Assembly (NCBI GenBank): GCA_020723345.1
Contig: DYJA01000035.1
Span: forward strand, 1-58,160
Length of the DNA stretch: 58,160 nt
Reading direction: 5' to 3'
Origin: Candidatus Aquidulcis sp.
Lineage (GTDB): Bacteria > Chloroflexota > Anaerolineae > UBA4142
Each line of letters begins with the position of its first letter. Position 1 is the stretch's first letter. The notes below the pieces were generated by a model that searched no databases, was not told the DNA's origin, and saw nothing but the letters and a program-made list of their open reading frames with translations. The translations under genes were made by a program, and so were the position numbers. This document shows positions 10,359 through 51,005 of the stretch, piece by piece.

Positions 10359-11378
10359 CTACGCGGCTTCCTGTCGCCGCTGGAACAGCAGTTGCCCAAT
10401 GGTCAAGATCAGCAGCACGACGGCGAGTACGAGCGATGCCGCCGCCGCCATGCCATAATTGCGGAACTCGAAAGCCGTGCGATAGATGTACTGGACGATG
10501 TAAAGCGTCGCCGTACCCGGTCCGCCGTTCGTCAACACGAATACTTGATCGAATACTTGGACGGCGCGAATGAGCGCAAGCACCAGCACGACGGTCATCG
10601 TCGGCATCAGCAGAGGCAGGGTGACATTCCAAAACGATCGCCACTTGTTCGCGCCATCCATCGAAGCGGCTTCGTACATCTCTTTCGGAATTCCCTGTAA
10701 ACCCGCCAGCAGAATCAGCGTAAAGAAACCCATTTGCGCCCAGACGCTCACCGCGATCACCCAGAACTGCGCCCAATTCGCGTCGAGCAGCCACGGGACT
10801 TTGGTCAGTCCGAGCGAAACGAGAAACGCGTTGAGCAGACCGTTTTGGTACTGCAAAATCCATTTCCAGATCAACGCGACGACGACCGGCGAAAGGAGCA
10901 CGGGATAAAAGAAAATCGCGCGGAAAAAACCGCGCCCCCGGACGTCGCGATTGAGCGCGAGCGCTGTGATGAGCGACATCAGGATGATGAAGGCGACTTG
11001 GAAAACGACGAAAGTCAGTGTGTTCCACGCGCCGCGCCAGAACAAATCTTCGGCGCAGGTGTTGGGCTTGAAGAAATCTTGGCAGCTGAAGATCTTTTCA
11101 AAATTGGCAGCGCCGACGACCGGACGATTCTCCAACAGAATCGAGTCGCCGCCGGTAAAGCCATAATAGAAATTCAATAGCATCGGGATCAGAATAAAAA
11201 TCCCGAAAATCAGGAGATTGGGCAGCACGAAAAAATATGCCATGCGTTTGTACCCAATCAGGTTTTGGAGCGGCGCCAAAATGTAATCGAGCCAGGACAT
11301 TGCCCAGAGAAAGGGCTGGAGCAACAGGTTGCTAGAGAGCCATTCGGGCTTGGATGTTTGCGAGGAAATGGATTGCAT
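10359..11378 (-). CDS. Sugar ABC transporter permease (MalF type)
   Basis: A MalF-type permease of 339 residues, starting at the ATG read from 11378 behind a strong GGAGG. About six membrane spans follow a ~60-residue N-terminal part (first span YFFVLPNLLIFGIFILIPML). The EAA motif reads YEAASMDGANKWRSFWNV. A long extracellular segment after the first span contains two cysteines (SCQDFFKPNTCAEDLFW). These could form a disulphide, which is unusual for the family. It works with the adjacent MalG-type permease and the upstream binding protein. Confidence 0.9.
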   Translation of the reverse strand: MQSISSQTSKPEWLSSNLLLQPFLWAMSWLDYILAPLQNLIGYKRMAYFFVLPNLLIFGIFILIPMLLNFYYGFTGGDSILLENRPVVGAANFEKIFSCQDFFKPNTCAEDLFWRGAWNTLTFVVFQVAFIILMSLITALALNRDVRGRGFFRAIFFYPVLLSPVVVALIWKWILQYQNGLLNAFLVSLGLTKVPWLLDANWAQFWVIAVSVWAQMGFFTLILLAGLQGIPKEMYEAASMDGANKWRSFWNVTLPLLMPTMTVVLVLALIRAVQVFDQVFVLTNGGPGTATLYIVQYIYRTAFEFRNYGMAAAASLVLAVVLLILTIGQLLFQRRQEAA

Positions 11379-11447
11379 GGTCGTCCCTCCGAGGCAGAAT
11401 CGTGCCGGGCTATCGGTTCGCGATAGCCCGGCAGACATCACGCGGAC

Positions 11448-12854
11448 TTATTTCTTGACTGCCGCCGCGGCTTCGTCCATCTTTTGTTGAATTTTCTTGA
11501 TTGCTTCGTCCAGTGACAATTCGCCGGTGATGGCTTGGCTCAAGCGGTCGCGCATTTCCGGATTGAGCGTCTGTCCCAGCGCGTTGAACTGGAGATAGTA
11601 CGATTCGGGCATCAGTTTTCCGACTTCCTTGAGGAAGACATTCATCTGTTTGTTGCTGCTCGGATATGTGACACCCTTCTTCGACAGACTCATCGAGCCG
11701 GGGAGGAAGAGCGACTTGGCGGAGAACTCTGCCAACACATCGTCGCTCGTGAGGTACTCAACCAGCTTGGCGACTTCTTTCGGATTCTTGGACGCTTTGA
11801 ACGCGACGAGCGCCGCGCCGCCGGGCATACCGGTCGATCCGCAGTCGCCATAGGGATTCGGCACCACGTCCCATTCGAACTTGTTGCCGATCTGTTGGGC
11901 GAACTGACCGACTTGCCAGTTGCCGGAGAAGTAGAACACGAGTTGACCGTTGACGAAAACCGTGTTACCGGCGGCATAACCACCGCCGCCGCCGACCCAG
12001 ATTTCGGGAGGCGTGATCTTGTCTTTGTGCCAACCAATCAGCATGTTGGCGGCATTGCGGAAACCGGGCGTGTCGATCGTGAACTTGGTTTCGGTCAAGC
12101 CGTTAACGTAGTGCGCGCATAAACCGAGCGAAGGTCCCCAAAAGCGATGACCGCTGCGATCCATCGCGACGGCATAGGGCGTCTTGGTCGCGGTCGCGAC
12201 TTTTTTCGCCGCGTCCACCCATTCTTGCCAGGTCACTTTATCTTTCGTATCGCTGGGCACGGGCACACCGGCTTGCGCGAACAACGTGCGGTTGATGAAT
12301 GGACCGCTCACCGTGAACTGGGTCGGGAAGCCGTACAGTCCGGTCTTGTCATCCGGTTTGCGGAGCGCGCCGAGGAATGCCGGCGACCAATTCGCTTCCC
12401 AGGCGGCGGCGTTGGTCAAGTTGGGTCGCAGGTCGAGGAAATAGCCCTGGAAGCGCGCGAGATCCGTGACGCGCGCGAGATCGGGCGGCGTGCCAGATTC
12501 AACTTGCGGTTGCAGAATTTTGTTGAGGTCGGCGTAGGCAACCGTATCCATCTTGACGGTGATGTTGGGATTGGCGGCTTGGAACTTGTCCAAGAGTGAG
12601 CGCATCACGGCGCCTTCGTTGCCGTCGTCGTACCACGTGATCCGCAGTTCGACTTTTTGCGCGGCTTGGGTCGGCGCGGTCGTTGGTTTGGGCGCTTCGG
12701 TCGGCTTGGGCGCGTCGGTCGGTTTGGGCGCATCGGTTGGCTTGGGCGCCGCCGTTGGCGGCGCGGCGGTCGGCGCGGGCGTGGGCGCGGGCGCGCAGGC
12801 AAAGAGAGCAAAGAGCGCGACAAGCACGACCGTGAGCAAAACAATTCGTTTCAT
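11448..12854 (-). CDS. ABC sugar-binding lipoprotein with repeat linker
   Basis: A 468-residue solute-binding protein. A Sec lipoprotein signal is visible: a basic start, a hydrophobic core and the lipobox LFAC near residue 20. A stalk follows that repeats KPTDAP several times (about residues 37-60), then the binding domain starting VELRITWYDDGNEGAVM. It should present an alpha-linked oligosaccharide to the permeases encoded directly downstream, judged from the GH31 gene in the operon. The C-terminal motif LSLDEAIKKIQQKMDEAAAA is common to family 1 binding proteins. It is the first gene after the divergent promoter region. Confidence 0.92.
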   Translation of the reverse strand: MKRIVLLTVVLVALFALFACAPAPTPAPTAAPPTAAPKPTDAPKPTDAPKPTEAPKPTTAPTQAAQKVELRITWYDDGNEGAVMRSLLDKFQAANPNITVKMDTVAYADLNKILQPQVESGTPPDLARVTDLARFQGYFLDLRPNLTNAAAWEANWSPAFLGALRKPDDKTGLYGFPTQFTVSGPFINRTLFAQAGVPVPSDTKDKVTWQEWVDAAKKVATATKTPYAVAMDRSGHRFWGPSLGLCAHYVNGLTETKFTIDTPGFRNAANMLIGWHKDKITPPEIWVGGGGGYAAGNTVFVNGQLVFYFSGNWQVGQFAQQIGNKFEWDVVPNPYGDCGSTGMPGGAALVAFKASKNPKEVAKLVEYLTSDDVLAEFSAKSLFLPGSMSLSKKGVTYPSSNKQMNVFLKEVGKLMPESYYLQFNALGQTLNPEMRDRLSQAITGELSLDEAIKKIQQKMDEAAAAVKK

Positions 12855-38964: not shown

Positions 38965-39759
38965 ATGCGAGAGCGTTTATATCGTGTCGAAGCAATCGTG
39001 TTGAAGCGCACAGATCACGGCGAGGCGGATCGTTTGCTCACGCTGTTCACGCCGGATCTGGGGAAAATGCGCGCGATTGCGAAAGGCGCGCGCAAGCCGT
39101 CGTCGCGCAAGAGCGGGCACGTCGAGTTGTTCGCGCACACGCACCTGCTCGTGGCGAAGGGCAAGCAACTCGATGTCGTGACGCAAGCCGATACGCTCGA
39201 CGCGTTCCTTCCGTTGCGCGAGAATTTGGAGCGCGTCGGTTACGCGTACTATCTCGCGGAACTGGTTGACAAGTTTTCCGAAGAGGGCACTGAAAATCGC
39301 GCGGTCTTTGATTTATTGCTGCACGCGCTTGCCGCGCTCGGCGATGCGACGAATGATCCCGATTTGCTCGCGCGATTTTTTGAACTGCGCGTGTTGCAGT
39401 ACGTCGGCTATCGCCCGCAGTTGTTCAACTGCATTCACTGTGGCAAAGCCATTGAGCCGCAGGAAAATTATTTCAGCGCGGAAGCGGGCGGCGTGCTCGA
39501 TCCGGAGTGCGTGCAAACACAGCGCGAGCAGATCGCGGGGCGCGCGTACGACGCGCAGCCGATTTCGCTGAACGCGCTCAAGTTGTTGCGGTACTTGCAA
39601 ACGCGCGAATGGGGGACGGTGCGCGGGCTCCGCGTCGCAGAGCGCGGCGACGCGATGTCCGAAGTAGAAACGCTGATGTTGCGGTACATCACGCATCATT
39701 TGGAACGCAATTTGAAGAGTGTGGAGTTTTTGAGAGAAGTAAAGCAACCGAATGCATAG
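38965..39759 (+). CDS. recO: DNA repair protein RecO
   Basis: A 264-residue RecO. The N-terminal OB fold begins RVEAIVLKRTDHGEADRLLT, followed by GKMRAIAKGARKPSSRKSG. The C-terminal helical part contains a zinc site (CIHCGKAI with a later C in LDPEC). RecO loads RecA onto SSB-coated single-stranded DNA together with RecR in gap and break repair. The start codon lies two bases after the mirrored repeat, with no clear SD. The next genes differ strongly in base composition. Confidence 0.93.
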   Translation: MRERLYRVEAIVLKRTDHGEADRLLTLFTPDLGKMRAIAKGARKPSSRKSGHVELFAHTHLLVAKGKQLDVVTQADTLDAFLPLRENLERVGYAYYLAELVDKFSEEGTENRAVFDLLLHALAALGDATNDPDLLARFFELRVLQYVGYRPQLFNCIHCGKAIEPQENYFSAEAGGVLDPECVQTQREQIAGRAYDAQPISLNALKLLRYLQTREWGTVRGLRVAERGDAMSEVETLMLRYITHHLERNLKSVEFLREVKQPNA

Positions 39760-39882: not shown

Positions 39883-42800
39883 ATGAATTCTTATTCGTCC
39901 AGGAATGGGGCGCAGGGTAATGATAACCGCACGTCAGGCACTCGCGTCCCAGAATTGTTAACAAAGGCTAACAGATCCTTCCAGAAAGGCGACTTGGGGG
40001 AAGCGTTGCGATCCTTCGAGCAGGCGTACAAGATTGGCGATCGCAGTCCTGGAATGTTTCTCCAGTTGGCCCAAACACTACAACGGTTGCAACGCTACGA
40101 TGAGGCGCAGCGGTATCTGGATCTCGGAATCAATGCGCTGAAGCCCAGTCAGCGTACGGCTTTGCTTAATCTCAAGGCGCAGATTTTCTCTTCCCGGAGT
40201 CAATGGGCTGAGGCAGCCGAGGCGTACGAAAGATTGATCCGACAAGATCTGCCACCGGCGGTCCGGCGTTTCTCTCGACTTCAACTAGCGCGCACTTATC
40301 GCCATCTTGGTGAGTTCGATAAAGCAAAAGCGATCCTTGATCAAGTACTTGCCGATTATCCCCAAGATCAAGTAGCAATTCGCATTCGGGCGGCATTGGA
40401 TCATGCCGCCGTAAGCAAAACAACAACCATTCAAGCTGAGTACGACGACGCGATCCGCGAGCTAGAAGTGGATTTGCCGGACGAGGGAATTGATCTTATT
40501 AGTCCAATGTTACGGCGAGACTTGGCCACAACTGAGTATCGTGATCAAAAGATTCTTTTGCAGGGTGGACGTCCTGAAGTCAGTGACGCCAATCGTTTAC
40601 TTGTTGAAGCTGAGAGAACCCAAGGTTCTGAGTTTGGCGAACGTCACCCGCTTTTTCTGGAAGCAGCAAAGGCTTACAATGAGTTACCAGAAGGATCTTA
40701 TGTTCTCGAACGTTTTCACCTGGCTTTGGCTCGATATGCCATGCTGAAAGGTGGGGCATTGGTTTCAGAATTTCGGCGTCGGATTTTGTCTGGTCGAACA
40801 GACCTCACAGAACTTTGTCGTTTGCGAGATAGTGCAACTAGCTACTATTTGGAATCACTTGCCCTTCAAGTGAGAGTGGATGTTCGCTACGCGTTGATAC
40901 CTCTTGCCAACTACCTACGCGCACAGATCGCCTATGCGTTAGTAGAGCGTAGCGAGCCTGTGCCCCCCAAGCTATTTCAGTATGACTTTGCCAGCTTGTT
41001 CAAACTCTGCCAAGAGTACCAAGACGATGGCATCGCGCGTATTGCATATGAATCTGTCGTATCATGGGGCGCGGCGAGTGGCTACGTATGGAACCGTTTA
41101 CAGGGGTTGCCCGGCGGACCCGGTTTCCTAGGGCAAGCATTGGAGAAACCTCCTGCTCGATACCGTCCATACCAAATACTCTCTGCAATCAGTGGGAAAC
41201 ATTTCACGCAGGACCAACGGCCGAGAGAAGTACTTCGAATCGCTTTCCTTGAGCGACGCGCGCGGACCCGCGAGATTCTCGATTTTTTCACGCGGTTGCA
41301 ACAAATGCCCCCCAGTGTTCAAAATTTTCGAGAATTACATTCGCTGTGGCAGGAATTTCCGAATCATCGAGGATCATTGCTGGAGACGGATCTTGAGATT
41401 CGCGACGGGGTGCGCGCGATACTAGATACATTATTACCCTATCAGACGCGATCTCCCGAAGAACGGACGGCAATCTTGTTTACTGCCCGAACCTACCTGG
41501 AAAATTGGTTGCGTTTTATCCAGTCGAATCCAACTTATTGGGGTCGCGTAGGTTTTGAGGGTCTTCTCACGCGCTGGCAGACATCAATTCGTATTATCGA
41601 ACAGCGGCGGTTGGGTGAAATTCAACCTAAACTGGTCGCTAGCCTTGAACCGCCAGTATTTCGCCGGGAAGGGGATCATGTCGAGGGTGGCGTGAACCTG
41701 CAAAACGTTGGACGCGGAACAGCTGAAGGCTTGGTCCTCAACATAGAGCTGTGTGAATATGATTCCGGTGAGATCCTTTGCAAGCGCGAGAGAGAAATCA
41801 TCCGTGAAGAGGTTGCTGTTAACGGGAAGCACTATATCCCAGTTCGTTTCTGTAATTCGGAGCTGTCTCACGGACTAAATGTGCCATATAGATTGCGTCT
41901 GCAAATTGCGCCGATATTCCGGCAGGTGGAACTAGATACTGCAGAACAAGAGTTTACCTTGGAGGTCCGTGCTGAGGTAGGTTTTTCTAAAGAAGATATT
42001 CCTTGGAATGAAATAACGATTCCACCGGAACATTTGTTCAAGGGGCGCGAGCAACTCATCGATCGTTTGGTCACTCATTTGAAATCAGGAGAACGTTCGA
42101 AAACATACATTCTTTATGGTTTGACACGAACAGGGAAGAGTTCTATCCTACGTTATCTCGGCAAGAGAGTTGACCTTCAACCTTTGGAGATAGAGGGAGT
42201 GCCTTTTCGTTTTGTCAGTTTTGAGTGGGACTTGGGTAGGGCAAAGGCCCACAGCAATGCTCAAGATATGTGGGGTTATCTTCTTAATGAGAAAGTTGTG
42301 GCTAAGCTAGATCACATGTCCAGAGCCGGTTTGATTCAGCCGAATCATGCGGCTGTGCTTCGTAATCCCGACAAAATCCGGTTTCGGGATTGGGAACCAT
42401 TGCTGACTTATTTGAGGCGGCAGTGTCTCTATCCTGTTTTTCTGCTGGATGAGTTTTCATACTACCGTGAGATGGTGGACAGCCAACGGTTGGATGCTTC
42501 CTTCTTAGCTGCTATTCGGTCTTTTGCTATCATCGGGCAAGCTAGCTTCGTCTTCGCAGGAACATACGATCTTCGCAAGCTTATCAAAGATCCTGCGTAT
42601 GGAATAACGGGTCAATTTGTTAATGCGATTGAGGAGAAAGTAAGCAAGATCGAACATGGGCCTGCCACGGAGTTGATTCAAGTAATGGGTACCAGTTTGC
42701 GATTTACTCAAGATGCGATCGACCACATCCTGCGCCTCAGTTATCAGGTACCCTATTTTATTCAGCTCCTTTGCAAAAACTGTGCATTTTATGCAGCCAA

Positions 42801-43239
42801 CTCTGGACGAAGTATAATAGGATTTCCTGAGGTAGAGACTGTGGTGCAAGCCCTGAGCGGCGAAAGCGGAGAATTGAGTCTAAAGGATGTCCCTCGGATG
42901 GCACCAGGTGTGTTTATGAACAATATGCATGCCCCCACAGATCCGATAGAATTTGCGGCGCTAATCAGTACAATATGCGATCTGACTCGTGGGCAGTTGT
43001 TTGCCCGGATGGTTACCTATTCGGAGATTCAGGAGGCATGGCATAGGGCTGGAGTTAGCTTGTTCCAAGCTCGACTTGCCCAAGCGATTCAAGAGCTGTG
43101 TGATCGCGAAGTCTTAGTTGCGGGGGAAGATGAGGGTATGCCTGCTTATCGCATCAGTGTCGACTTATTTAGGCGCTGGTGGGCGAATGAGCACAAGTAC
43201 CTAAATCTCGAACTTGATGCCGTGAAGCAGGAGGGCTGA
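39883..43239 (+). CDS. TPR protein with C-terminal AAA/STAND-type ATPase domain
   Basis: An 1,118-residue protein in three parts. Residues ~20-180 form TPR repeats (LGEALRSFEQAYKIG, YDEAQRYLDLGINALKPSQR). A middle region of unknown fold ends in a CARDB-like beta domain (VEGGVNLQNVGRGTAEGLVL, ~610). The C-terminal part is a P-loop ATPase: entry motif FKGREQLIDRLV, Walker A GLTRTGKS (746-753), Walker B FLLDEFSYY (D856-E857), then a likely winged helix. Such multidomain ATPases often sense stress or phage. It starts at 39883 behind AGGAGA, and a second ATPase gene follows four bases after its stop. Codon use (AGA, ATA, TTA, CTT) differs from the flanking genes. Confidence 0.8.
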   Translation: MNSYSSRNGAQGNDNRTSGTRVPELLTKANRSFQKGDLGEALRSFEQAYKIGDRSPGMFLQLAQTLQRLQRYDEAQRYLDLGINALKPSQRTALLNLKAQIFSSRSQWAEAAEAYERLIRQDLPPAVRRFSRLQLARTYRHLGEFDKAKAILDQVLADYPQDQVAIRIRAALDHAAVSKTTTIQAEYDDAIRELEVDLPDEGIDLISPMLRRDLATTEYRDQKILLQGGRPEVSDANRLLVEAERTQGSEFGERHPLFLEAAKAYNELPEGSYVLERFHLALARYAMLKGGALVSEFRRRILSGRTDLTELCRLRDSATSYYLESLALQVRVDVRYALIPLANYLRAQIAYALVERSEPVPPKLFQYDFASLFKLCQEYQDDGIARIAYESVVSWGAASGYVWNRLQGLPGGPGFLGQALEKPPARYRPYQILSAISGKHFTQDQRPREVLRIAFLERRARTREILDFFTRLQQMPPSVQNFRELHSLWQEFPNHRGSLLETDLEIRDGVRAILDTLLPYQTRSPEERTAILFTARTYLENWLRFIQSNPTYWGRVGFEGLLTRWQTSIRIIEQRRLGEIQPKLVASLEPPVFRREGDHVEGGVNLQNVGRGTAEGLVLNIELCEYDSGEILCKREREIIREEVAVNGKHYIPVRFCNSELSHGLNVPYRLRLQIAPIFRQVELDTAEQEFTLEVRAEVGFSKEDIPWNEITIPPEHLFKGREQLIDRLVTHLKSGERSKTYILYGLTRTGKSSILRYLGKRVDLQPLEIEGVPFRFVSFEWDLGRAKAHSNAQDMWGYLLNEKVVAKLDHMSRAGLIQPNHAAVLRNPDKIRFRDWEPLLTYLRRQCLYPVFLLDEFSYYREMVDSQRLDASFLAAIRSFAIIGQASFVFAGTYDLRKLIKDPAYGITGQFVNAIEEKVSKIEHGPATELIQVMGTSLRFTQDAIDHILRLSYQVPYFIQLLCKNCAFYAANSGRSIIGFPEVETVVQALSGESGELSLKDVPRMAPGVFMNNMHAPTDPIEFAALISTICDLTRGQLFARMVTYSEIQEAWHRAGVSLFQARLAQAIQELCDREVLVAGEDEGMPAYRISVDLFRRWWANEHKYLNLELDAVKQEG

Positions 43240-43243
43240 TTCC

Positions 43244-45004
43244 ATGAATCTACAATCCGGTTTTCAACCCAGTTGCGAAGTAACAGACCCAGAATTGCTC
43301 TTCGGCCATAGCCGCCCGGGTGCTCTGCTTGAGCAACTGGTCACTCAGATGCGTTTGGGAACAAATGCTCAACTATTGGGCGAACGTCGTTCTGGCAAGA
43401 CATCGTTATTGAAGTGTTCCATTCCGCGACTGTGTGCAGCAGAGCCACGGGTGGTGCCCGTTTACCTTAACTACCGTAGGCATCACCTGGTGAAGGGGTA
43501 TGCATTAGCACATCGTTTGTTGCTCGCTCATGTACATGCTTCTGCAGTTAGGGGTTGCTATGGTGCTTTCCCCACCCGTCTCATGTTGCGTGGCATAGAG
43601 CTATCACCAAGTCTATTGCCAGAAGAACATTTCGAAAAACTGTCTTCTGTATCGGACTATCGAATTGACGGACTCATAGAGGCATATTTTCATCTACTGG
43701 GTGAGTACGGCTTGGGTGTGGTCTTGTTGCTTGACGAATATGAGCACTTGATGCAACACACGTTTGGAGGGCAAGAGGGAGCGTTCTTCCACATTCGGAC
43801 ACTCTCGTCAGAGGCTCCACCAAGTCGAGGGGCTCCCAAGGCCCTGACATATGTAGTGGCAGGAGCGCTACCATGGAATCAACTTTGTCACGTGATTGGC
43901 TCTCCTGAATTGAATAACATTGGGGTCGTCTTGCCTATCACCCCACTGGATTCTGAGGCTTTTCGACAGATGTGGGAGCAGTGCCTTGCAGACAGCTCTC
44001 CTGCCGTACGACAACACATTTCAATGACAAATATAAAACTGGATAGTATCTACGAACAAGCAGGTGGGTGGCCTTTCTATGGAAAGGTAATTGGACAGCA
44101 CATGAGTTCTGGTTCGTATAATGAGGATGCGATCTATGAGGCCTTGGTTGATCATTTCACAGTGATCTGGTCGCGCCTCAATTTCGCTGAACGGAAACAA
44201 CTGAACGCTGTCTGCAAGGGGCTACCGGAAGCGGTTGACGCCTCAACTCAGACTATGCTCCATCGCGGTCTTGTTGAGTACGACTTGGCAGGGAGGTTGG
44301 GGGTGCGCGGCCAACTTTGGTCGAGGTACGTTCGTGATCAGATTTCAGAATCTGCTACGGACTTGAAGCCAACTGTGCAGGAATCGAACGAAGAGAAGTT
44401 AGGATTAGTGGTCGATAAAATCCTTGACCTAGTTGCGGAAATCAACGAAAGTAGCCTCAATATCTCAGGTGAAGAAATCTTCCGATCAAGTAACCACGAC
44501 AGGCAGATTGAGCGAGATCTCCGCAAGTCTGCAGTTGACGCTGATCAATTTTCTCAGTTCGCTTTATCGCTCTATAATTTGCTCTACGAACGTACCACAG
44601 GCCCCAAACTGGCCAAAGTGGTTAGCAGTGACGGCAAATCAATTGTTGAAGAGAACCGTTTCCGCCCATTGGAGCGACTTCCGAAAAAACTCCGGCGCAA
44701 TCGAAGCATTGTGAAAATTGTGGATGCCGTGCGACATCACTTTGGCAAGGGGCATTTGACCCGCTTGGGTTCATTCAACATCAGCGGGAATGGATTGAAA
44801 ATAAGTGATGTATTGCAGCAATACCTTGGTAGTAGGGCAAATCCGCGGGATGCTCAGTTTTTGGCAATGCAGCTCGGGCTCTTGAATGATGTGGCTTCTT
44901 TCCTTGTCGAACTCCGAAATCTTCTTGATGAGAGCCCAGAGATGTTTTGTAACTCAAGTCCAAGTTCAGACTGTGTTGCAGAAAGTCAAACCGCCCAATC
45001 TTAG
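43244..45004 (+). CDS. AAA/STAND-type ATPase, partner of the TPR-ATPase
   Basis: A 586-residue ATPase. Residues 15-30 give the entry motif (ELLFGHSRPGALLEQLV). Walker A is GERRSGKTSLL (46-56) and Walker B VVLLLDEYEHL (D164-E165). The sensor region PKALTYVVAGALPWNQL follows. The C-terminal ~200 residues are helical, highly charged and unrecognised; they include RFRPLERLPKKLRRNRSIVK. Four bases separate it from the upstream gene, with AGGAGG overlapping that stop, so the products are probably made together and may interact. No nuclease or protease motif is seen. The pair lies between recO and glyQS and looks horizontally acquired. Confidence 0.75.
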   Translation: MNLQSGFQPSCEVTDPELLFGHSRPGALLEQLVTQMRLGTNAQLLGERRSGKTSLLKCSIPRLCAAEPRVVPVYLNYRRHHLVKGYALAHRLLLAHVHASAVRGCYGAFPTRLMLRGIELSPSLLPEEHFEKLSSVSDYRIDGLIEAYFHLLGEYGLGVVLLLDEYEHLMQHTFGGQEGAFFHIRTLSSEAPPSRGAPKALTYVVAGALPWNQLCHVIGSPELNNIGVVLPITPLDSEAFRQMWEQCLADSSPAVRQHISMTNIKLDSIYEQAGGWPFYGKVIGQHMSSGSYNEDAIYEALVDHFTVIWSRLNFAERKQLNAVCKGLPEAVDASTQTMLHRGLVEYDLAGRLGVRGQLWSRYVRDQISESATDLKPTVQESNEEKLGLVVDKILDLVAEINESSLNISGEEIFRSSNHDRQIERDLRKSAVDADQFSQFALSLYNLLYERTTGPKLAKVVSSDGKSIVEENRFRPLERLPKKLRRNRSIVKIVDAVRHHFGKGHLTRLGSFNISGNGLKISDVLQQYLGSRANPRDAQFLAMQLGLLNDVASFLVELRNLLDESPEMFCNSSPSSDCVAESQTAQS

Positions 45005-45034: not shown

Positions 45035-46405
45035 ATGCCAGACATGGACACGATGGTGTCGTTGTGCAAACGACGCGGCTTTGTCTTTCAAGGTTCGGAA
45101 ATTTACGGCGGCATCGGCGGATTCTGGGATTACGGTCCGCTCGGCGTCGAATTGAAAAATAATATAAAGCGCGCGTGGTGGAAAGCGATGGTGCAGGATC
45201 GCGACGACATCGTCGGCATTGACGCGGCGATCATCATGAATCCGAACGTGTGGGTCGCGAGCGGTCACGTCGCGACGTTCAACGATCCGCTCGTCGAGTG
45301 CAAAAACTGTCATCATCGTTTTCGCGCCGACGAAATTCCCGGCGAAGCGTGTCCGCACTGCGGCAACAAGGGCACGCTGACCGAGCCGCGCCAATTCAAT
45401 GTGATGTTCAAGACGCACGTCGGTCCCGTGGAAGATGACGCGGCGATTGCGTACCTGCGCCCGGAAACCGCGCAAGGCATCTTTGTGAATTTCTCGAACG
45501 TGCAACAGTCGATGCGGAAAAAAATTCCATTCGGCATCGCGCAGATGGGGCGGTCGTTTCGCAACGAGATCATCACCGGCAATTTTATTTTCCGCGACCG
45601 CGAGTTCGAGCAGATGGAGATGGAGTTTTTCGTCAAGCCGGGTTCGGAGGACGAGTGGCACGATCATTGGCGCGACGAGCGACTCGCGTGGTGGAAGAAA
45701 ACGCTGAACATTCGCGACGAAAATATTCGCGTCAAGGTGATTCGCAAAGAGCGAACGTACATTATCGGTCCCGATCCTGATGATGTGAAAGAGGAAAAGC
45801 CGCCGCATTACTCGAAAGGAAATTACGACATCGAGTACCGTTTTCCGATGGGCTGGAGCGAAGTCGAAGGGATTGCGAGCCGCACCGATTGGGACTTGGG
45901 CGCGCATCAAAAATTGAGCGGCAAAGACTTGACGTACTTTGACGATGAGACGAAAGAAAAGTACATTCCATACGTCGTCGAACCCGCTATGGGCGTGGAT
46001 CGCGCGGTGCTCGTCGCGCTATTCGAAAGTTACACCGAAGAAGTCGTGCGCGATGAAAAGCGGATCGTCTTGCGGTTACCCAAGACGCTCGCGCCACTCA
46101 AAGTTGCAGTTCTGCCGCTCGCACGCAATCGTCCGGAGATCGTCGAACTCGCGAAGAAAATTGTCGCGGAACTCAAGCCCTACATGATGGCGATGTACGA
46201 TGACACCGCGAGCATCGGTCGGCTCTATCGCCGCCAAGATGAAATCGGCACGCCGTTTTGCGTGACGGTGGATCATCAATCCGCGTTGCCGGGCGACGAA
46301 AAGTACGACGGCAAGGTGACGATTCGCGATCGCGATTCGATGGAACAGATTCGCGTGCCGGTGGCGGAAGTGAAGAATGTCCTACTGAGTCGCCTGGTCG
46401 AGTAG
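45035..46405 (+). CDS. glyQS: Glycyl-tRNA synthetase, single-chain dimeric type
   Basis: A 456-residue class II aminoacyl-tRNA synthetase of the eukaryote/archaea-like alpha2 type, not the bacterial alpha2beta2 type. Visible are the N-terminal [20 protein letters not shown], a zinc-binding CKNC...CPHCG insert, motif 2 ([19 protein letters not shown]), motif 3 ([18 protein letters not shown]) and the anticodon-binding domain from about residue 350. It charges tRNA-Gly. It follows the ATPase pair after 30 bases. Its original promoter is not clear and may have been displaced by the inserted module. Confidence 0.95.
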
Positions 46406-46432: not shown

Positions 46433-46903
46433 ATGAATGAAGGTGGTTCCATCGGGCAGATTGAAAATTATCTGCCGCAACTGAAAACGATTTTTGAAGA
46501 ACACGGCGTCGTTCTCGCGTATCTCTACGGCTCACAAGCGAGCGGCAACGCGGGTCCGTTGAGCGACGTGGACATCGCGGTGTTGTTCGCGCGCGGCATT
46601 GAATCGAGTGAGCGCTTTGATCGCGTCTTGAGATTGATGGGCGATCTGGCGAGTGTTTTCAAACGCGACGACGTGAATGTGCTAGACTTGGACGAAGGGA
46701 CGCCGCTATTGAACAACAATGTGCGCGTGCATGGGCGCGTAATTTTTTGCGCGGATGAAAAAGCGCGCGCCGATTTTGCGCTGCGCGCGTTGCAGCAATA
46801 TGTTGACACCGAACCATTGCGACGGATGCAGAATCGTTACTTGCGAGAAAAAATCGAGCGCGGCTTATTTGGGCGTCCGATTCCGATTGTGCGCGCGAGG
46901 TAA
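46433..46903 (+). CDS. MNT-domain nucleotidyltransferase (MntA-type antitoxin)
   Basis: A 156-residue minimal nucleotidyltransferase. The active-site motif is intact: YGSQASGNAGPLSDVDIAVL with G33-S34 and D45/D47. MntA enzymes add AMP to a Tyr of the HEPN toxin HepT and silence it. The gene is directly followed (two bases) by a start codon of a HepT-like frame, but that partner is cut short. The length (usually ~140) and C-terminal LRRMQNRYLREKIERGLFGR fit the family. It may now be a leftover antitoxin. Confidence 0.85.
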   Translation: MNEGGSIGQIENYLPQLKTIFEEHGVVLAYLYGSQASGNAGPLSDVDIAVLFARGIESSERFDRVLRLMGDLASVFKRDDVNVLDLDEGTPLLNNNVRVHGRVIFCADEKARADFALRALQQYVDTEPLRRMQNRYLREKIERGLFGRPIPIVRAR

Positions 46904-49946: not shown

Positions 49947-51005
49947 GTGGAGAACTCCCTTGAGCTTCAGTATCGTTTCTTTGTTGTTGATGAAAAGCCA
50001 TACTGTCTCTGGGACACCGACATCAAGGAAAGAACCATCAAGTTTTTAGAAAGCGTAGATCCAACATACTTCATGCACGTTGCTGATACTCACTTTGAGT
50101 CTTTGGCGGAGGCTAACTCGCAGCAATGTGCCTTGGTGATCCGGAGTACCTACGCTCAGTCGCTGGAGACGCTATTTGCCCTTATTGGTGCCGCTGTTCA
50201 GTCACCTTATTGCGTGCCGGGCTGGATTCTGAAGTACGGAAGCCATGACCTTCGCAGCGTGGTGAAAAAAATTCAGGATCACCAACCTCTTCTGTCACAC
50301 CTACAAAGGAAGAACCTCTCGTGGGCAATAATTGCCGAAGCGCTGCTGGCGTGGCTGGCCTTGGAAGACAAGAACAAGGAGTGCTCAATAAAAACAAGTT
50401 TCGCTAAATTGTGGTCACGCCTCGCATCTGATTTTCTAGATGAGACCTCGATCCACGAATATAACAGTATCAAGCACGGATTGCGGCTTCGAGCAGGTGG
50501 CTTTAGCCTTGCTCTGGGACGCGAGGAAACACCTGGAGTGCCAGCTCCGGCAGAGAATATGCGGTTGTGGGCAAAGAGTGAATACGGTTCGAGTTTCTTG
50601 GTAAGTGAGAAGTTTGGACAAATGAAACACCATATTCATTTTGTGCACCATGCACATAACTGGAACCCCGAAGACCTGGTTTGGGGGATTCATCTTGTTT
50701 CGATTTCAATTTCGAATGTTCTCTCAGCTCTGAAGATTCTTAACGGTATTCCATCGGAACGAGTCAGATTTGAATGGCCTAACGATCTTGCCTCATTTGA
50801 CGAACCATGGAGGCGCGCAATAACATTGGGAACGCGGGCAATGTCGTTTCAGCCAACGGTAATCCCTGAAGAACTAATCACACCATTTAGCAAGGAGGAA
50901 ATTTTGTCCCGGTACCAAAATGGGGAAGATGGCGGAATCCAAAGAATTGTAGTGCGTAATGCTTCTGGAGCGGATGATGAGATCCGAGAAAAGAGCGTAG
51001 GTTGA
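49947..51005 (+). CDS. Unidentified protein, possibly HEPN-like
   Basis: A 352-residue protein I do not recognise. It has no signal peptide or membrane span. The segment RSTYAQSLETLFALIGAAVQ and the later EYNSIKHGLRLRAGGFSLAL look like helices of HEPN-like or ApeA-like proteins, but the RX4-6H motif is not clear. The GTG start follows GAGGA. Base composition (about 48-50% G+C in sampled lines) and codons differ from ppdK upstream and the methyltransferase downstream, suggesting recent transfer. A very strong terminator follows about 100 bases after the stop. Confidence 0.6.
   Translation: MENSLELQYRFFVVDEKPYCLWDTDIKERTIKFLESVDPTYFMHVADTHFESLAEANSQQCALVIRSTYAQSLETLFALIGAAVQSPYCVPGWILKYGSHDLRSVVKKIQDHQPLLSHLQRKNLSWAIIAEALLAWLALEDKNKECSIKTSFAKLWSRLASDFLDETSIHEYNSIKHGLRLRAGGFSLALGREETPGVPAPAENMRLWAKSEYGSSFLVSEKFGQMKHHIHFVHHAHNWNPEDLVWGIHLVSISISNVLSALKILNGIPSERVRFEWPNDLASFDEPWRRAITLGTRAMSFQPTVIPEELITPFSKEEILSRYQNGEDGGIQRIVVRNASGADDEIREKSVG

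Follow-up and report, generated by a model that had tools for sequence, protein, structure and literature searches.

A mobile pair of adjacent STAND-type ATPase genes at a variable recO-glyQS junction: a probable two-gene conflict module

Between recO and glyQS in the genome of a Candidatus Aquidulcis species lie two adjacent genes, A and B, that encode STAND-type ATPases. The two probably make up a conflict module that is mobile and in all likelihood directed against phages. The genes belong to a stretch of 58,160 nucleotides (contig DYJA01000035.1 of assembly GCA_020723345.1), which we refer to as the window. We propose that A serves as the sensor and switch of the pair and B as its effector subunit. 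The TPR and helical regions of A would recognise an invader-derived cue, upon which its ATPase, acting as a nucleotide switch, would change state and allow A to co-assemble with B, a second ATPase holding an effector in its C-terminal domain. Such an assembly would gather the effector domains of B and turn on a toxic activity, probably against RNA, that may stop the infected cell producing virus.

The initial annotation had described two open reading frames of 1,118 and 586 residues, with four bases between the stop of A and the start of B, and its coordinates proved exact (Table 1). Candidate upstream motifs, picked out by eye, stand a few bases 5' of both start codons (AGGAG for A, AGGAGG for B). 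The Walker motifs are intact in both proteins, as first described: GLTRTGKS (residue 746) and VFLLDEF in A, GERRSGKT (residue 46) and VLLLDEY in B. Past Walker B, alignments reveal an invariant arginine at residue 879 of A, and B carries Arg 185 downstream of its own Walker B. The assignment of A as a TPR protein with an AAA-type ATPase also held up: the TPRs are solid by Pfam, and the ATPase domains match weakly (AAA_16/ATPase_2 for A, AAA_22/ATPase_2 for B). Downstream of the TPRs of A lies a long helical region, and a putative Ig/CARDB-like beta-sandwich, for which Pfam gives no profile match, precedes the ATPase core.

Table 1. Coordinates in the window of the A and B genes, their parts and the flanking genes.
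Feature	Position	Strand	Description or basis
recO, left edge of variable site	38965..39759	+	Pfam RecO_N/RecO_C
Gene A, 1,118 aa	39883..43239	+	TPR / helical / putative beta-sandwich / STAND-type ATPase / C-terminal winged-helix-like region
A TPR repeats, residues 27-175	39961..40407	+	Pfam TPR_19 5.8e-12, TPR_2 1.1e-9
A putative Ig/CARDB-like beta-sandwich, about residues 581-695	41623..41967	+	sequence reading alone
A ATPase core	41992..42777	+	AAA_16 1.1e-4 and alignments
A Walker A	42118-42141	+	
A Walker B	42436-42456	+	
Gene B, 586 aa	43244..45004	+	STAND-type ATPase and orphan C-terminal domain
B ATPase core	43244..44338	+	hhalign to B-type ATPases bearing nSTAND2 (97.6) and CHAT (97.8)
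B Walker A	43379-43402	+	
B Walker B	43721-43741	+	
B C-terminal orphan domain, residues 375-586, effector position	44366..45001	+	47% identity to G112 copy
glyQS, right edge of variable site	45035..46405	+	74-95% identity, 12 other family genomes

The pair differs in composition from its neighbours, as had been claimed. Its GC content is 0.494 in A and 0.489 in B, and its GC3 is 0.47 and 0.48, respectively, against 0.62-0.78 in the remaining window genes, with the exception of ORF 49947-51005. In codon usage, A lies at z = 19 and B at z = 12 from the remaining genes of the window, compared with 1.1 for recO and 0.7 for glyQS.

Within the window's family, the recO-glyQS junction is itself a site whose cargo varies. 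In three relatives recO and glyQS are directly adjacent, with 16-103 bp between them, and in eight family genomes, two of them from the window's genus, an insert of 594-865 bp takes the place of the ATPase pair (loci L020, L022, L023, L025-L028 and L030). These inserts mostly hold two small ORFs, which by eye appear DUF5678-like and to bear a VDSGA aspartic-protease-like motif. Neither long flanking direct repeats nor a tRNA accounting for the insertion was found at the site, and none of the same-genus genomes searched has the pair. A housekeeping role for the two ATPases, linked to recO or glyQS, might be imagined from their location on the glyQS strand and their tight spacing to glyQS, but is very improbable, given that other family genomes have the two genes adjacent or separated by unrelated cargo, and that the closest homologous pair sits at a locus unrelated to recO-glyQS. 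A functional tie to either gene was rejected on the strength of these empty and alternative sites.

That closest pair comes from a genome of the same class, G112, in which A and B are 55% and 44% identical to their window counterparts and their genes lie three bases apart. An A profile run over 396 class genomes matched only the window and G112, and a search with B found no copy in the remaining 151 genomes of the family to which G112 belongs. The G112 pair occupies a block of 6,592 bp and 36% GC, together with a third gene encoding a DUF4062 protein of 324 residues (E 3.9e-30), and the genes flanking this block are side by side in eight genus-mates. In the closest genus-mate, G856 (L144), the flanks are 98.6% and 98.3% identical to those of G112 and 108 bp stands in place of the block, marking a recent insertion or replacement. 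We infer that A, B and the DUF4062 gene reached G112 together. A mobile, foreign pair is thus supported by composition, by the variable junction and by the block insertion in G112, and the foreign origin first proposed stands. Anti-phage action has been demonstrated for DUF4062 proteins, which are TIR-like NADases (PMC13174449), and their association with the pair comes from one genome, G112. The survey of homologue neighbourhoods for defence islands that the initial annotation had advised returned the DUF4062 NADase-type gene beside the G112 pair; no known defence gene was recognised beside the pair within the window.

Beyond G112, five further full-length homologues of A were found, all more distant. 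Among 400 phylum genomes we found seven full-length TPR-type A proteins, counting that of the window (the others being in G112, G124, G096, G166, G300 and G050). A profile built from the window and G112 proteins aligned with those of G124 and G096 over 945 columns (hhalign 99.2%, E 7.6e-20). The C-terminus of the B partner is exchangeable on this shared scaffold. In G124, G096 and G166, B ends in a HEPN_Swt1 domain with the motif RNPLAH (9e-7, 2.7e-7 and 1.1e-8); in G300 it has a degenerate Swt1 part and a tail that is HEPN-like by the motif RNDRTH alone; in G050 it ends in a Ser/Thr kinase (2e-37); and in the window and G112 it carries the orphan domain. Each of the seven modules has a higher AT content than the sequence on either side. 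The HEPN RNase ends in these relatives and the DUF4062 gene in the G112 block support the initial suspicion that paired STAND-type ATPases of this kind have a conflict or defence flavour. The A gene of G124 (L124:9781-16114) may be split by the insertion of a reverse-strand frame (11251-12498) resembling an IS transposase.

More broadly, profile comparison sorts the ATPases into two types, A and B. A resembles proteins of 1,302, 1,196 and 969 residues at loci L009, L010 and L008, respectively, and B resembles proteins of 643 residues at L009 (nSTAND2 and kinase) and 691 residues at L008 (CHAT). At both L009 and L008 a single A-type gene has a single B-type gene as its direct neighbour. The B-type profile matched in 43 of 221 phylum genomes, and an A-type gene was present in the same stretch at 18 of the 20 B-type loci fetched, abutting or overlapping in 14. 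Outside such pairs, the lone further match to the A profile in these stretches was weak (19 bits), to an ATPase with two other P-loops. A and B are inherited as a pair: the genes are adjacent in G112, B-type loci regularly hold an A-type gene, and the A and B similarity matrices correlate across the seven full-length pairs (r 0.86; 25 of 5,040 permutations). As read from sequence, the recurrent design is a putative sensor-type STAND ATPase beside a STAND ATPase with an exchangeable domain. The parts seen on A proteins are TPR, beta-propeller, HEAT, GAF, FGE-sulfatase or RelA-like, and those on B proteins are OmpR-type DNA-binding domains, a kinase, CHAT, HEPN or unrecognised tails.

This diversity offers some encouragement to an alternative, namely that the pair is a signalling or transcription-control module in which the state of the cell is sensed by A and passed on by B to gene expression, with no part in defence. 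Trans_reg_C ends many distant B partners (L071, L072, L077, L087, L122 and L127), and an OmpR-type DNA-binding domain suits regulation over killing; two B partners also bear Ser/Thr kinases, and some A proteins bear GAF or RelA-like HD/TGS domains. However, full-length TPR-type A proteins are mostly paired with HEPN RNases, their clade is consistently foreign in composition, and the C-terminus of the window B has no Trans_reg_C match, all of which leaves regulation an unlikely account of the window pair. Two further variations on the A side were seen. At L087:7297-10710 an A-type ATPase shares one protein with RelA/SpoT-type HD_4, TGS and RIS domains, with no synthetase domain reported, and this fusion possibly links alarmone chemistry to the paired-ATPase module. 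In L119, L120, L088 and L121 a cold-shock-like OB-fold (weak in L120 and L121) lies ahead of the TPRs and suggests nucleic-acid sensing by those A proteins; the window A is without this fold.

Searches of mobile replicons bear on a second alternative, in which the target of such a conflict module is a plasmid or another mobile element, or the module is itself the selfish cargo of one, and it is not anti-phage. The pair is mobile, rare and AT-rich and offers no phage-specific clue, all of which speaks for this account. Against it, the toxin-antitoxin layout is absent, the effectors of relatives (HEPN and TIR-like DUF4062) are common to anti-phage systems, and tblastn found neither A nor B in 72,556 plasmid records, nor A in 50,697 phage records. 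We regard this account as slightly less probable than regulation, and an anti-phage module remains our preferred reading. A tblastn search of the phage records with the C-terminal domain of B likewise returned no copy. Pattern scans of 85k genome species and viral contigs gave no relatives; the patterns were narrow, so absence from these collections is weak evidence.

The effector itself would reside in the orphan C-terminal domain of B. The initial annotation had recognised no effector domain in either protein, and Pfam, NCBIfam and PADLOC agree in giving none for A or B; a profile search of the PDB with B also returned no matches. Across libraries, phylum genomes (301 for this domain), plasmids, phages and viral contigs, the sole relative found was the G112 copy. 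The two copies share the invariant block ERLPK...R.IV..VD..RHHFGK.H.TRL, including RHHFGK(G/A)H at 44732-44755. Within it, R497-x6-H504, in which a histidine directly follows the arginine, and E477-x3-K481 are both invariant and agree with the published account of HEPN domains, in which an Rx4-6H motif lies within the HEPN fold (PMC3710099); however, an invariant Rx4-6H is expected by chance in such an alignment with P of about 0.35. The attempt to establish HEPN identity by hhalign failed (0.2% against HEPN_Swt1), and Pfam gave no match. A HEPN domain is a tentative candidate here, with the chances somewhat below even.

The initial annotation could name no system to which the pair belongs. 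A close precedent in layout does exist: Kaur et al. 2021 (PMC8195603, Fig. 6C) predicted a mobile two-gene operon with a STAND NTPase in both genes, in which an NTPase with eroded NTP-binding motifs is fused to an effector, most commonly GT4 or HEPN. They proposed a hetero-multimeric ring with an arginine finger in both proteins, and predicted that such operons, when they carry HEPN or GT4, are counter-invader systems (PMC8195603). The window pair shares with this operon adjacent genes that each encode a STAND NTPase core, mobility, a variable C-terminal domain on one protein (B), and a HEPN domain in the majority of its closest relatives beyond the 55%-identical G112 pair; the arginines past Walker B in A and B are a further likeness. 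It differs in that GERRSGKT and LLLDEY of B are intact rather than eroded, erosion being seen in the relatives L120 and L121, and in that the effector position of B holds the orphan domain, with no GT4 or HEPN profile match. Judged by its domains, then, the pair is close in layout to the Kaur operon and set apart from it by intact ATPases and an orphan domain; the claim of a system without a name is half right.

The NTPase of the Kaur operon belongs to nSTAND2 (PF20702). B has no match to this profile at E<=1, although it aligns (hhalign 97.6) with a B-type protein for which PF20702 gives 1.4e-18. In PADLOC, B matches mad8 of the MADS system weakly (7.6e-4) over a generic ATPase region; full-length Mad proteins are absent, and the pair gave no other PADLOC matches. 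Single-chain STAND defences such as Avs and bacterial NACHT proteins combine a repeat-type sensor with a STAND switch in one chain. The window pair has the same ingredients, but its proposed sensor and effector are split over two ATPases. Swarozyc, a DUF4062 TIR-like NADase (PMC13174449), has a counterpart in the DUF4062 gene beside the G112 pair, whereas in the window neither A nor B nor a gene beside the pair carries DUF4062. It is conceivable, if doubtful, that the pair represents a new type of defence system, built from a TPR-STAND sensor and an intact STAND effector subunit with an effector family other than HEPN, GT4 or kinase, and accompanied in some hosts by a DUF4062 NADase.

Two-gene STAND operons have been a matter of prediction in the literature we searched, where we found no experimental follow-up. 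The window pair is a compact case; G112 and G856 are two nearly isogenic species, one carrying the block and the other lacking it; and effectors (HEPN, kinase, orphan) are swapped on the same scaffold. Together these features open the split between sensor and effector to experiment. Should the orphan domain of B prove to be an effector, it would be a new one.

Several observations concern the surroundings of the pair. ORF 49947-51005, of 352 residues, is a second compositionally foreign gene nearby (GC 0.478, codon z 8.4), and a Pfam search gave it no matches. Between glyQS and PPDK lies a Polbeta-type nucleotidyltransferase (46433-46903) with no HEPN partner in sight; it is shared with one same-genus genome (L020) and missing from several others. 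Finally, the host genome is rich in conflict-type proteins, with nine DUF4062 matches on contigs C67, C49, C14, C53, C4, C128, C80, C26 and C129, mostly within large open frames of 560-1,230 residues.
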